NCBI RefSeq assembly: GCF_000565195.1
Contig: NZ_CP006720.1
Location: 1,054,001-1,118,000 of the forward strand
Source of the DNA: Spiroplasma mirum ATCC 29335
Lineage (GTDB): Bacteria; Bacillota_I; Bacilli_A; Mycoplasmatales; Mycoplasmataceae
Length of the DNA: 64,000 nucleotides
Reading direction: 5' to 3'
The notes below the pieces were generated by a model. The model saw only the letters and a program-made list of their open reading frames with translations. It made no database searches and was not told the origin of the DNA. Position numbers and translations under genes: made by a program. Shown here piece after piece: positions 9,551-49,598 of this stretch (position 1 is its first letter; every line of letters begins with the position of its first letter).

Positions 9551-9973
9551 TGGTGGAGATGGCGGGAATTGAACCCGCGTCCACAAACAATTTCCAATCA
9601 TCTTCTACAGTTTAGTTTTATCAGTTTTAATTCATTATAAGATAATAGGACAAAACAACTAACCTTATAACTAAATAATTATTTTTAAAGATTATAACAC
9701 TATCAATTATAATCCCGATTAGATTAATTTTCTTCTACATTAGCTCATTAATAATCTACAATTAATAACACTAACGATTAGCCAAAACTCTAACAGCGAA
9801 TATTAAGCGGCTAACATTGCCCCAGCAAATTGATTGTTCATCATAAATACTGGCATTGCAATTTTGTCTTGTTTTTCTTTTTTGTTTGCGTTTCTTCAAA
9901 CCTAGAAGCATTATAGTCTGCCAAACTACTGCCGATGAAATTCTACCATTCCTGTCGAAGCCAAGACATCCCC
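9551..9973 (-). ncRNA. ssrA: transfer-messenger RNA (tmRNA)
   Basis: The RNA reads 5' GGGGATGTCTTGGCTTCGAC and ends GTTCAATTCCCGCCATCTCC plus ACCA, giving the acceptor stem GGGGAUG/CAUCUCC with the G3-U wobble recognised by alanyl-tRNA synthetase, and a T arm. The tag frame runs from 9889 to 9803 and encodes 28 residues, beginning ANKKEKQDKI, ending QFAGAMLAA, then TAA. The first Ala codon GCA fits the resume codon. tmRNA frees stalled ribosomes and marks the product for proteolysis. A T-rich stretch follows the CCA. The tag is close to what I recall for other spiroplasmas. Confidence 0.95.
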
Positions 9974-43924: not shown

Positions 43925-44815
43925 CTAAGCTTTACCTTTGCAACCAAATCAACCAGTTAATTCACTAAAAGTTTCTTTAATTGCTTCATAACCTGGATGT
44001 AATAATTTACGAGGGTCAAATCCTTTACCATTTTCTGGTTTATCTTTGCCTTCTTCAATATATTTTCTTGTGGCCGCCGCAAAAGCAATTTGTAATTCAG
44101 TATTAACATTTACTTTACTAATTCCTAATGAAATTGCTTTTATCACTTGGTCTTGGGGAATTCCACTACCCCCATGTAATACCATTCCAATTTGGGATGC
44201 CGCTTGAATTTTTTCTAATGCTTCAAAATTCAATCCTTTTCATCCTTTTGGGTATGGTCCATGAATGTTTCCAATTCCAGCGGCTAAAAAACTAACTCCT
44301 AAATCAACCATTTTTTTAGCTTCGGCAGGATCACCAATTTCGCCGGCTCCAATAACCCCGTCTTCTTCACCCCCAATTGTTCCAATTTCAGCTTCCACTG
44401 AAACTTCATGAGCGTTTGCGTAGGCAATAACTTCTTGGGTATTTTTATAGTTTTCTTCAAATGGGTGATGACTTCCATCATACATTACTGATGAAAATCC
44501 CGCGTCAATCGCTGCTTTACAGCTTTCTACTGATTGTCCATGATCTAAGTGTAACGCAACAGGAACAGTTATGTTTAAAGAATCTAATAAATTAGTTACC
44601 ATTGCTTCAACAAATTTAAATCCTCCCATATATTTGTTAGCACCTTCTGATACTCCTAAAATAATTGGAGTGTTAGTTGCTTGGGCCACTTCTAATAATG
44701 CTTTTGTTCATTCTAGATTATTAATGTTAAAATGACCAACAGCATATTTATTTTGATGAGCTTTGTCAACCATTCCTTTAGCATTTACTAATCTTGTATG
44801 ATATTTTCTTGCCAT
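43925..44815 (-). CDS. fba: fructose-bisphosphate aldolase, class II
   Basis: The 296-residue zinc aldolase cleaves fructose-1,6-bisphosphate in glycolysis. The start MARKYHTRLVNAKGMVDKAH lies behind AAGGAG. Zinc ligands and the active site are in ALHLDHGQS (His, Asp), MYDGSHHPFEEN, GNIHGPYPKG (His) and VLHGGSGIP (His). It ends LTGWFGCKGKA after a TGA-encoded Trp. The gene is monocistronic between its own terminator and two small RNA candidates on the opposite strand. Length is usual for the class IIA/B mollicute enzyme. Confidence 0.96.
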
Positions 44816-44982: not shown

Positions 44983-45011
44983 TTACACACTTTTACAAAA
45001 TATGTTATCAT
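44983..45011 (+). promoter_or_regulatory. promoter of small RNA candidate 1
   Basis: TTACAC and TATCAT are separated by 17 nt on the plus strand, 6-7 nt before the predicted RNA start. No coding gene follows on this strand. Confidence 0.5.
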
Positions 45012-45016
45012 AAAGA

Positions 45017-45112
45017 CAGGTTAAGATAAATTCTTAACCAAACAATATGTTTCCGTTCAAAATAGTTTTTCATAATTTTTTCTAAACACAGTATTACTGT
45101 GTTTTTTGTTTT
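45017..45112 (+). ncRNA. small RNA candidate 1 (about 95 nt)
   Basis: The predicted transcript has three parts: a perfect 8-bp hairpin (GGTTAAGA, loop TAAAT, TCTTAACC; 45019-45039), a linker with TTTCCGTTCAAAATAG and TTTTT (45050-45070), and a rho-independent terminator (AAACACAG / CTGTGTTT then TTTTG; 45084-45109). No start codon with a frame fits. The linker motif recurs in candidate 2, at the same distance from its terminator. The promoter, structure and lack of coding support a small stable RNA. The function is unknown. I do not recognise it as SRP RNA, RNase P RNA or 6S RNA. Confidence 0.6.
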
Positions 45113-45282
45113 TTAAATTTGTTTTGTTTTTTTAAGATTTTAAATATTTATTATCTAAAAAATTGAATAAATATAAGGTTTAAAATTTATTAAATTAATT
45201 TTTTTCATATTTATGAAATCTATTTATTTTAGAATTTACTATGCTATTTATAAAAATGCTATATGGTAACATATAGTGGATA

Positions 45283-45395
45283 GAAATTTGTTCCAGGATT
45301 TGGAAGGACCTCCTTTACCTGGTTAAATAATGAGTTTCCGTTTGTAAATAGTTTTTTCTAGACCTCAAGTTAGCGCTTGAGGTTATTTTTATTTT
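45283..45395 (+). ncRNA. small RNA candidate 2 (about 110 nt), related to candidate 1
   Basis: A nested hairpin (outer CCAGG/CCTGG at 45293-45322, inner AAGGA CC TCCTT) is followed by GTTTCCGTTTGTAAATAG and TTTTTT, nearly the same linker as in candidate 1. A strong terminator comes next (ACCTCAAG / CTTGAGGT then TATTTTTATTTTT). Upstream there is a TATAGT at 45272 as a possible -10 box, but no convincing -35. The 5' hairpins of the two candidates differ in sequence while the linker and the terminator placement agree, as in duplicated RNA genes. The 5' end is approximate. Confidence 0.55.
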
Positions 45396-45416
45396 TAGCA
45401 ATAATTAAAGATAAAT

Positions 45417-45449
45417 AAAAACCCAACTTGATCTCAAGTTGGGTTTTTT
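45417..45449. terminator. terminator after the third giant permease
   Basis: The sequence AACCCAACTTGA TC TCAAGTTGGGTT forms a perfect stem flanked by A and T runs on both sides. It can terminate the minus-strand permease (stop 5 nt away) and plus-strand transcripts from the small RNA region. Confidence 0.8.
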
Positions 45450-45453
45450 AATT

Positions 45454-48400
45454 CTATTCTTGTAAAACATCTAAGACACGAGTACGTTTTAATGAAATAT
45501 AACCACCAAGTAATGAAATAGTATAGGTTATTAATACAATCATAATAATAATTACAAATAGTCACCATGTTTTAATAATCGGTAATACAAATCAACCAAC
45601 TAAAGCTCCGATAACTGCCACATAAATGAATCAACCAGCTAAGATTCCTAGTCCTAAGCCAACGACAATAACTGGGAAGTAAATTCCTAAAATTGCTTTG
45701 GTAATTTCACAATTTCGATAACCTAACACTTTCATTGTTGAAATTAATAGTTTATTTTCTGTAATAATCATATTAGCAGTAAAGACAATAATGATAAAAC
45801 ATATTGCAATGGCAATTGCTAAGAAGAAATATAATGCAATTGTAATTAAATCAACAAAACTTTCAATAACATGTAATTGTTGTGATAATAAAGCATCAAA
45901 AGTTAATCCCGCATAACCATATTGCGGATACATTGTTTTTAAATCCGCACCGGGTCCAAATTCTTGTCCACCCCCAAGTGTTAATCTTGTATAGTCTCCC
46001 ATATTTTGATGAAGTCCAATACTACTTTGCACATCATCAAGGGCTGTGGAAGTTGTAAATTTGGCATTTCAAACCGGATATAAAGAATCAAATAAGCGAA
46101 GATGATTATAAAATTCAAGTTTTTCTGAAGTAGATCAACTATTAACAATTTTAAAATCAATTGTTTGGGTAATTGGGTCATATGCATTGTCATAAAGATA
46201 GCTATTATATAACCCTGTTGTATAATTTAATGTTGGCGCGTTTAGATTACTTAGATTAAAAATAGGAACTAAATAATCACGTAACTTATCAAAGTTTAAA
46301 ATTCTTTCGGCATATAATTTGGGACCGACTAAATCACCATTTCCATCTTTAATATTTTCTAAATTTTTAAAATGGGTTTGTTCATTTAAAGTATACATTT
46401 TGCCATTTCCATAGTCTTCATCAATGCCAACCACTTGCACTTGTTGTTCTTTGGTAACTGCACTAGTAAACACTTTATTTTCATAAATTAAATGGCCCAT
46501 TGTTGTTTGGTTTTGCGCATTATTTGAATAATATAAACGGTGGTCACCTTTATATGTTAAATCACTACCACTAGATGATTGCACACTATCCATATATGGT
46601 TGAATTGCTAAATCAAAAGTATCACTGCCAACTTTAACAGTACTTTGATTTGGCCAAAAGGCATTACGTAATTTTTGGGTCATTGAAGTACCCCCAAACC
46701 CTTTTTGAATACTTGTGTAATCTAAATCAGAGGTGTTGGTTCCATTAACATTAAATGGTTCATAATTTCTAACCCGTGTCCCATTGTAATACTGTAAAGT
46801 ATCATTATTTGGTGAAATTGTTAAAACATCACCATTTTTAATATTTAGTTTTTTGGCTAGCGCTTGATTAATTACCACGGGTAATACAGCACTAGGATTA
46901 CTTAAATCAACTTCGTAATTTTCTAAATTATTAATTAAGTTATGACCATGTTCATCATATAAATTAGTTAAATTTAAATAATGGGGATTACCATTGTTAT
47001 CAACATAATAATTATGAGAGTTAATTCCATAACCATCAATACTATCTTTATTTCCATCCACATTATTATGATTATTAATCTTTTTAATAATGGGGTTGAA
47101 ATAAATAGCTGATTGGTCAGTATTAGGATTATAAGGAATAGTTCCAAACCCAATTCCATATTGAAGGTTTAAATCCGGGCTTGATAATCTTTCACGCACA
47201 AATCATGGTGATCTTGTTAAAACTCCTTCATAACTGCATACTCCTGCTGACATTGGTTTTAAATTGACATAAGGAGGAGGAACTACTTTGTTACCATCAT
47301 GGTCGGTAATTTCTTGAGGAACTCCATTATTATCAACTACTTGATATCAAATAATTTTCCCTGGTTCGTTGGGATCGGGTTGAGCATATTTTAAAGCAAA
47401 TTCATAAGTTGACATTGTTCCCGCAATCACACTTGAATAATCGGGAAGAGCAATTGAACAAGTGATATAAGCAAATGGTGCAACACTTGGATCACTATAT
47501 AATCCAGCATTTTCAGTAGTGATCATTGATTGAATGTAGTCTTTATTATAAAGCAATCAATTCGAATTCTGTAATTGTCCAGACCCAATAACTGACATTA
47601 GCACATTATTTTTAGCTAATTGTAAATCGTTCTTAACAATATAAGGATCAATATGAACAGGTAATAAGTTGTAAGGAGCAATTTTTCCATTAATGGCATC
47701 TTGCCCTAAAAATGGATTGTCATCATGGTTTCCCACTGATAAATCATATGTTCGGTAGGTTGATAATGGTGAGTTTCAAATTGGTAATTCATAATGAGAA
47801 ACTCCTTGATAATCCTTATTTTTATAAGTTTTATCAATCATGGTTGTTAATGATTTGGGAGCAAAAATAGCAGCAGTAATTAAAGCACTCCCAATAATTA
47901 AGGCAATAAAAGTTATCATCATTTTTCCCAGCGATTTCGTAAAAATCGCAATTTGGAACCGTACGTGGAAATTACGACGCGGATTAATTTTTGTTAATGT
48001 TCGTTGGATTGTTGATACTAATCTGGTTTGTTTTTGTTCAGCATATAATTTTAAAACATCACCACTAATTGTAAATCATCCGGTAAAGAAGGTAATCAAA
48101 ACAAGTACCGCAGTAATTAAAATAACAGAAATTGCAAAAACCTCCCCGTTTCAATTGAAGTCACCAAATGGCATCGTAAAGAATTTTTGAAAAGCATTTA
48201 CCGGTAAATTTTGAATAGCTGTTCCAATAAACCACCCAATTAAACCCCCAATAATACCAATTGTTAACGGATAAGCACTATAAGCCCCAATTACCGTTAG
48301 TTTATCATAACCTAATGATTTTAATGTTGCAATTCGTTGACGTGCAAAGGCAATTTGTTTTCTAATTAGTAACACAATAATAAAGAAGGCAATAATTAAA

Positions 48401-49598
48401 ATAATAACTAACCCAATTGTTAATGCTGTTGTATATAAGGCTGTCATATCATTCATCATTGAAGTCCGGGGACTAAAACGATAATTTTGATCATAAATCC
48501 TATAAATATATTTTCCTTTATTTCCTGCAGCAAGTGTCATATAATAGTCCATTTGCTTATTTAAAACTTCCGGAGTAAGGCGCAGATCATTTATTTTAAT
48601 TGAATAATATGTTTCTTTATCTGCAATTGACGATAACGCCATCATATCATTTGTGGGATATTGTTTTCAATATTCCATTGGATAATCATTGGCCGGGTCA
48701 GCATCACTTCATACTAGCCCAAACATTTGCGGATTAACATAAATTAAGGCATCTTTTTTCGTGTCTGGTAAAACAGTAGTTGGGTCAACCATTGGATAAG
48801 TAAAATCAGGAGTATAACCAAAAGCGACAATTCTCAACGGAACAGTTGTTTTAGGATCAATTTTAGTAGGATCACAAGTTAGCTTCCCATCATCTAACTG
48901 GGGACATATATAATCTCCTAAGGCAATATTATTTTGTCTCGCAAAAATAGGGTCCACCACCACATCGTCTTCTGCTGCTCTTGTTGCCGCACCAGTACTA
49001 TCAATATTCATTCCCCCATAAAGATGGCCATCATATTGTTGACCATTCACATAGGTTCCCCTTGCGGTGATAATTAAATTATCAACTGTCGGAGTAAAAG
49101 GAATTTTCCCATTGGGAGTCAAGTTACTTTTGTTTCCATACGCAATTGTTTTAAATAAATAGTTTTCATTAGCAATTTTTTTATCAAATAAACGTGTTTC
49201 TCGGCGAATATAGTCAAAAGTATTATAAACACTTGGGTATAAACTGTTAAAAGTTTCTTGAATTTCATACATTACCCTTTGGTTATAATTTCCCTTGACA
49301 CCATAATCATTAAAAACATCGGGGCCTAATGGATTATCAGGATCCGAAGTTTTGCTAGCAAAGTCAGCTTCAAAAATGGCGCATGTAATCGTCCTTCTTT
49401 TATCGCAATATTATATTCACCTTTCATGCGGGTTTTCGTTGTTTGTAAAACAGTAAACCCCACTGCGCTAATAATAATTAAAAAAATTAAAATAATAACT
49501 TGGATTCAATTTTTAAAAACATCTTTAAAAACATTTTTAAATAATAAATTAACACCCCGCATAAAATTTGGCTGATGGCTTTTTTTATTAATCTTCAT
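45454..49598 (-). pseudogene. giant FtsX/MacB-like permease with one early frameshift
   Basis: The N-terminus MKINKKSHQPNFMRGVNLLF, with a helix (VIILIFLIIISAVGFTVLQ), runs to GRLH at 49383. The frame then breaks: only two bases separate CAT and GCC, where a codon is needed. The second frame continues AIFEADFASKTSDPDNPLGP and stays open to VLDVLQE, about 1310 further codons. The doubled FtsX layout is as in the two intact paralogues: AFARQRIATLKSLGYDKLTV in the first bundle and ENKLLISTMKVLGYRNCEIT in the last. A single-base loss near 49381 explains everything. A sequencing error is possible, and the gene could then be a complete ~1381-residue permease. Alternatively, translation could start at an internal Met such as 49272, without the first helix. 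Confidence 0.8.

Follow-up and report, generated by a model that had tools for sequence, protein, structure and literature searches.

Within the 64,000-nucleotide stretch of the Spiroplasma mirum ATCC 29335 genome analysed here (the window, with coordinates counted from its first letter), fba and an FtsX-type permease gene are separated by 638 bases. Inside this intergenic stretch lie two units on the plus strand, U1 and U2, at the place where a sequence-only reading of the DNA had seen two candidate small RNAs. That reading had described the region as downstream of fba; the units in fact lie upstream, divergent from fba, and both read away from it. The features, with the RNAs and their parts as predicted, are:

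44815..43925, minus strand: fba (Pfam F_bP_aldolase)
45001..45011, plus strand: U1 promoter, extended -10 TATG-T-TATCAT, spaced 6 nt from +1 (45018; after the consensus in PMC5138195)
45018..45108, plus strand: U1, predicted sRNA of ~91 nt, end approximate (from sequence and fold, z -4.7; also in genome G003)
45019..45039, plus strand: U1 5' hairpin (GGTTAAGA/TCTTAACC), at base +2
45049..45084, plus strand: U1 conserved single-stranded tail GTTTCCGTTCAAAATAGTTTTTCATAATTTTTTCTA
45084..45108, plus strand: U1 intrinsic terminator (terminator scan)
45240..45250, plus strand: U2 promoter, extended -10 TATG-C-TATTTA
45258..45396, plus strand: U2, predicted sRNA of about 130-139 nt, conserved genus-wide
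45258..45277, plus strand: U2 P1, 5' hairpin from +1 with a GNRA tetraloop cap (GUAA here, GCAA in other clades)
45278..45342, plus strand: U2 P2-P4, long imperfect hairpin
45334..45360, plus strand: U2 conserved tail GTTTCCGTTTGTAAATAGTTTTTTCTA
45361..45396, plus strand: U2 intrinsic terminator (terminator scan)
49272..45454, minus strand: FtsX-type permease gene

The two units are laid out alike, with an extended -10 promoter, a 5' hairpin beginning no more than one base from +1, a TTTCCGTTnnnAAATAGTTTTT tail and an intrinsic terminator. The order of hairpin, linker and terminator originally read in each unit holds for both, except that in U2 an additional long looped hairpin, P2-P4, is placed between. 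This hairpin contains a conserved A.C mismatch, an asymmetric loop and a GGA...UCC tip displaying GGACCUCC, and the 3' strand of P2 is overlapped by the 5' portion of the tail. The 17-nt promoter spacing proposed for the first unit was not recovered in our scan, in which the -35 element is weak and spacings of 16 or 18 nt turn up about as often as chance predicts (6 against 5.6 expected); convincing instead is the extended -10. In U1, this element and its 6-nt spacer agree with the consensus of the mapped S. melliferum start sites (TRTG, TAWAAT, 6 nt to +1), as given in PMC5138195. In silico, 13 of the 14 U2 genes show the same spacing from the extended -10 to the base that opens P1, which is also their predicted +1; in the window genome, whose U2 promoter is one base longer than that of its closest relative (TATG-C-TATTAT, exactly 6 nt to +1), the spacing is 7 nt and the prediction is off by one base. 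Transcription of U2 would begin with the A of ACUAUAUGG, that of U1 one base 5' of its hairpin. Terminator-like sites number five in a 680-base scan, with 0.1 expected, and those of both units are among them; an intrinsic terminator also follows the U2 tail in the sequences of relatives. The folds of both transcripts beat 200 of 200 shuffles (z -4.7 for U1, -4.0 for U2), and the predicted sizes are ~91 nt and ~139 nt, not the ~95 and ~110 nt first estimated. As a separate observation, the U2 terminator (45361-45384) and the bidirectional terminator located between U2 and the permease gene (45417-45448) have CTCAAGTT/AACTTGA in common, and thus their arms could pair mutually.

How widely are these genes distributed? 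Conservation in related spiroplasmas, on which the sequence-only reading had staked its proposal, is complete for U2: as best match per genome, a covariance model (R1) finds it in all 14 genomes of the genus, always beside fba and divergent from it, and an exact-type pattern recovers it in 10 of them. By sequence, these genomes form three clades, A (the window genome and G003), B (ten genomes) and C (G001 and G013). The clade C genomes are the most distant, and R1, built without either of them, found U2 in both beside fba (E 0.003 and 0.03). In the ten clade B genomes the U2 core is 97-99% conserved, as against 85-90% for the promoter, the flanks and the coding start of fba. Outside the genus, no U2 homolog was found in the family's other 46 searched genomes or, under strict filters, in a sample of 395 genomes of the class; viral contigs gave no match, and no such element was seen upstream of fba at 16 loci in sister genera. 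A single tail-pattern match outside the genus (L080) was judged to be chance, as it sits in apparently coding sequence. The RNA family thus appears, as far as seen, to be confined to one Spiroplasma genus. Two further observations concern variation within the genus. In the U2 tail (L004, L005, L007, L010, L022, L024), some genomes carry ATAGTTTTTTC twice and others once, regardless of clade, as if the element had been gained and lost often. Weak model matches in G005, G002 and G012 (L027, L028 and L029; E 0.1-2.6), at about position 1500 on the minus strand, hold related sequences, ATGGTAACATATGGTAAACAAAAACACAGCAG...TGCTGTG, with unrelated genes nearby; small ORFs beside the G002 match resemble plectrovirus proteins, and the matches might represent a mobile copy, or else a repeat of other origin.

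The three clades A, B and C fold alike, into two successive hairpins, a free tail and a terminator (core z -4.1, -3.5 and -9.1). In an alignment fitted to the structure of the model, the 14 sequences form standard pairs in 94% of pair cells, and ten pairs have changed on both sides, which none of 500 shuffles matches, and sliding the pair partners destroys the signal; as the ten clade B sequences are closely related, this covariation evidence amounts in effect to three clades. P1 is capped by GCAA or GUAA, both GNRA, and clade C carries a compensatory change from C-G to U-A. P2-P4 is a long imperfect hairpin with the A.C mismatch and asymmetric loop in clades A and B and a plain long hairpin in clade C, and in P2-P3 structure is better conserved than sequence. 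The wobble changes (GU/AU, UG/UA) are consistent with a plus-strand RNA. In clades A and B the UCCGUU part of the tail pairs into P2; clade C lacks the CCUCC loop, G002 has CCUUC in its place, and U1 has no such loop. The sole possible ORF in U2, a 25-residue frame in clade B, has no ribosome site, and open runs are short; since a TAA cuts it short in G010 and it spans six codons in clade A, a coding peptide was rejected and the gene is taken as non-coding. Gene anatomy, conservation, structure, the non-coding nature and the absence of Hfq discussed below were computed directly, expression and stability are what we infer, and on this sequence evidence U2 is most likely a real small RNA gene, non-coding and with a stable product. 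That small-RNA genes exist at U1 and U2 seems to us very probable.

U1 was found in the window genome and G003 only. It is devoid of the P2-P4 domain and has a different 5' hairpin from that of U2; homology is confined to the promoter, tail and terminator layout, and the tail is the sole element common to U1 and every U2 clade. The alignment of the common tail (AAACAATATGTTTCCG-TTCAAAATAGTTTTT / AAATAATGAGTTTCCGTTTGTAAATAGTTTTT) has a score that shuffled unit pairs reach in 2 of 1000 cases, and the U1-U2 similarity alone is suggestive, being only moderately significant. U2 is the main member and U1 most likely a second, shorter RNA of like design, which probably arose by a duplication after which the middle was lost or exchanged. 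The earlier notion of duplicated RNA genes with a conserved core survives in that there are two genes and the core is kept, but tandem duplication is not general, given the narrow occurrence of U1. No family in Rfam 15 matches U1 or U2 at gathering or permissive thresholds, at which chance matches driven by the terminators are all that appear (best score 25.5 bits against a cut-off of 55), bearing out the impression by eye that the units resemble neither SRP RNA, RNase P RNA, 6S RNA nor tmRNA. A search of open-access papers likewise found none describing the U2 family. U2 is, by Rfam 15 and the open-access literature, a real and previously uncatalogued small RNA family.

What can be proposed about its role? 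Hfq was found in none of the 14 genomes of the genus, with five control genomes positive, and an Hfq-dependent sRNA does not fit these hosts. Our tentatively preferred reading is an Hfq-independent, trans-acting sRNA whose 5' end is protected by a hairpin and which acts through its single-stranded, pyrimidine-rich tail. Transcription would start from the extended -10 promoter divergent from fba and, because the hairpin lies at +1, the 5' end would be sealed in P1 (GNRA-capped in U2); the transcript would end at the intrinsic terminator. P2-P4, not present in U1, would form a clade-variable domain, and the pyrimidine/U-rich tail, held largely single-stranded between hairpin and terminator, would pair over short stretches, in trans and Hfq-free, with A/G-rich translation-initiation regions of mRNAs, to which the CCUCC loop of clades A and B may possibly pair as well. 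We infer the base-pairing mode and this class of targets; trans pairing is favoured because U1 and every U2 clade share the tail, which is mostly single-stranded and rich in U and C. An anti-Shine-Dalgarno action of the CCUCC loop as sole mechanism was set aside, since the loop is kept neither in clade C nor in G002 and is absent from U1. A target search for the tail complement, allowing two mismatches, gave no excess over a reversed-pattern control beyond the gene itself; the best match (G010, one mismatch) lies inside permease coding sequence, and GAAAAAACTATG, a putative target start-site pattern, has two sites in the genome.

The lack of target excess would suit the main rival to base pairing, a structural or protein-binding RNA. 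In this view P2-P4 and the GNRA-capped P1 would be bound by a protein or ribonucleoprotein, and the U-rich tail would recruit an RNA-binding protein instead of serving as a pairing seed. The GNRA tetraloop (GCAA/GUAA) is kept across clades, P2-P3 conserves its structure better than its sequence, and the duplicated AUAGUUUUUUC element of several genomes resembles a repeated protein site. However, most of the P2-P4 architecture is missing in U1 and clade C, the common denominator being the sequence-conserved tail, and the protein partner is putative; we regard such a role as rather unlikely. Possible, if somewhat doubtful, is a genus-specific, abundant, Hfq-independent and modular RNA, with a constant tail and interchangeable hairpin domains, that would serve as a general translation regulator or as the scaffold of an unknown ribonucleoprotein. 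If this is true, the same tail would be carried with P2-P4 in U2 and without it in U1, in bacteria with very few regulators.

Could the stretch instead serve fba in cis? The stretch or its transcription would then regulate fba by promoter competition or a shared operator, with the RNA itself inert. Consistent with this, fba is the constant neighbour in 14 of 14 genomes, and the gene on the far side varies: comparing the window (45454-49272) with L013/L025, it is the FtsX permease gene in the window versus fpg (MPELPEVETVR...) in those clade B and C genomes that were read, from which we conclude that synteny is broken by a rearrangement just past the U2 terminator. A repeated ATTTACC box between both promoters in clades B and C would also fit. 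Yet the conserved block is RNA-like: it points away from fba, is bounded by a start and a terminator of its own and retains plus-strand wobble pairs. The fba-proximal flanks are also less conserved than the RNA, and we consider a cis element improbable. Regarding the box itself, AATTTACCnAAATTTACC is repeated in units ~10-11 bp apart between the divergent fba and U2 promoters of clades B and C, ~60-100 bases before the U2 +1 in L013 and other loci of these clades; it is possibly an operator, and the window shows no recognisable copy.

MCS4 RNA, a small and stable RNA encoded by two genes in the mollicute Mycoplasma capricolum, has a likeness to U6 snRNA in sequence. It may be comparable to U1 and U2 in its size and duplicated genes, and ACAGAG stands near the 5' part of clade B U2. 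The U2 family, though, went undetected in the other 46 family genomes, in the class sample of 395 and in the fba-upstream regions of sister genera; the Rfam list held no U6 match at E up to 5, a weak argument, as the MCS4-U6 likeness is one of sequence. We hold homology to MCS4 to be very improbable. Barely credible is the view that AT-rich intergenic DNA with two terminators formed accidental hairpins by chance, for which the 2 in 1000 of the U1-U2 similarity and the backing of U1 by two near-identical genomes only could be cited, but which the conservation and covariation of U2 across three clades already refute for U2.

To our knowledge, the trans-acting RNAs of Mollicutes are hardly catalogued. 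U2 is a structured RNA in every genome of the genus searched, including insect symbionts such as S. poulsonii, and is a candidate for the first studied sRNA of the Hfq-less Spiroplasma genomes; RNA-seq data exist for S. melliferum and S. poulsonii. Like the predicted units, tmRNA, SRP RNA, RNase P RNA and 6S RNA are structured and stable, of similar size or larger, but tmRNA (window 9551-9973) and SRP RNA (G000:C1:9211-9303) are separate genes, and the Rfam models do not match. Hfq-independent sRNAs of Gram-positive bacteria, such as RsaE/RoxS and the UCCC-motif sRNAs of S. aureus, target ribosome-binding sites with C/U-rich single-stranded motifs. U1 and U2 differ from these in their motif (UCCGUU...AAAUAGUUUUUUC) and in matching none of the Rfam families by sequence or covariance, but are like them in being short intergenic units with their own promoter and terminator, a 5' hairpin and a pyrimidine-rich single-stranded stretch, and in having no need of Hfq.
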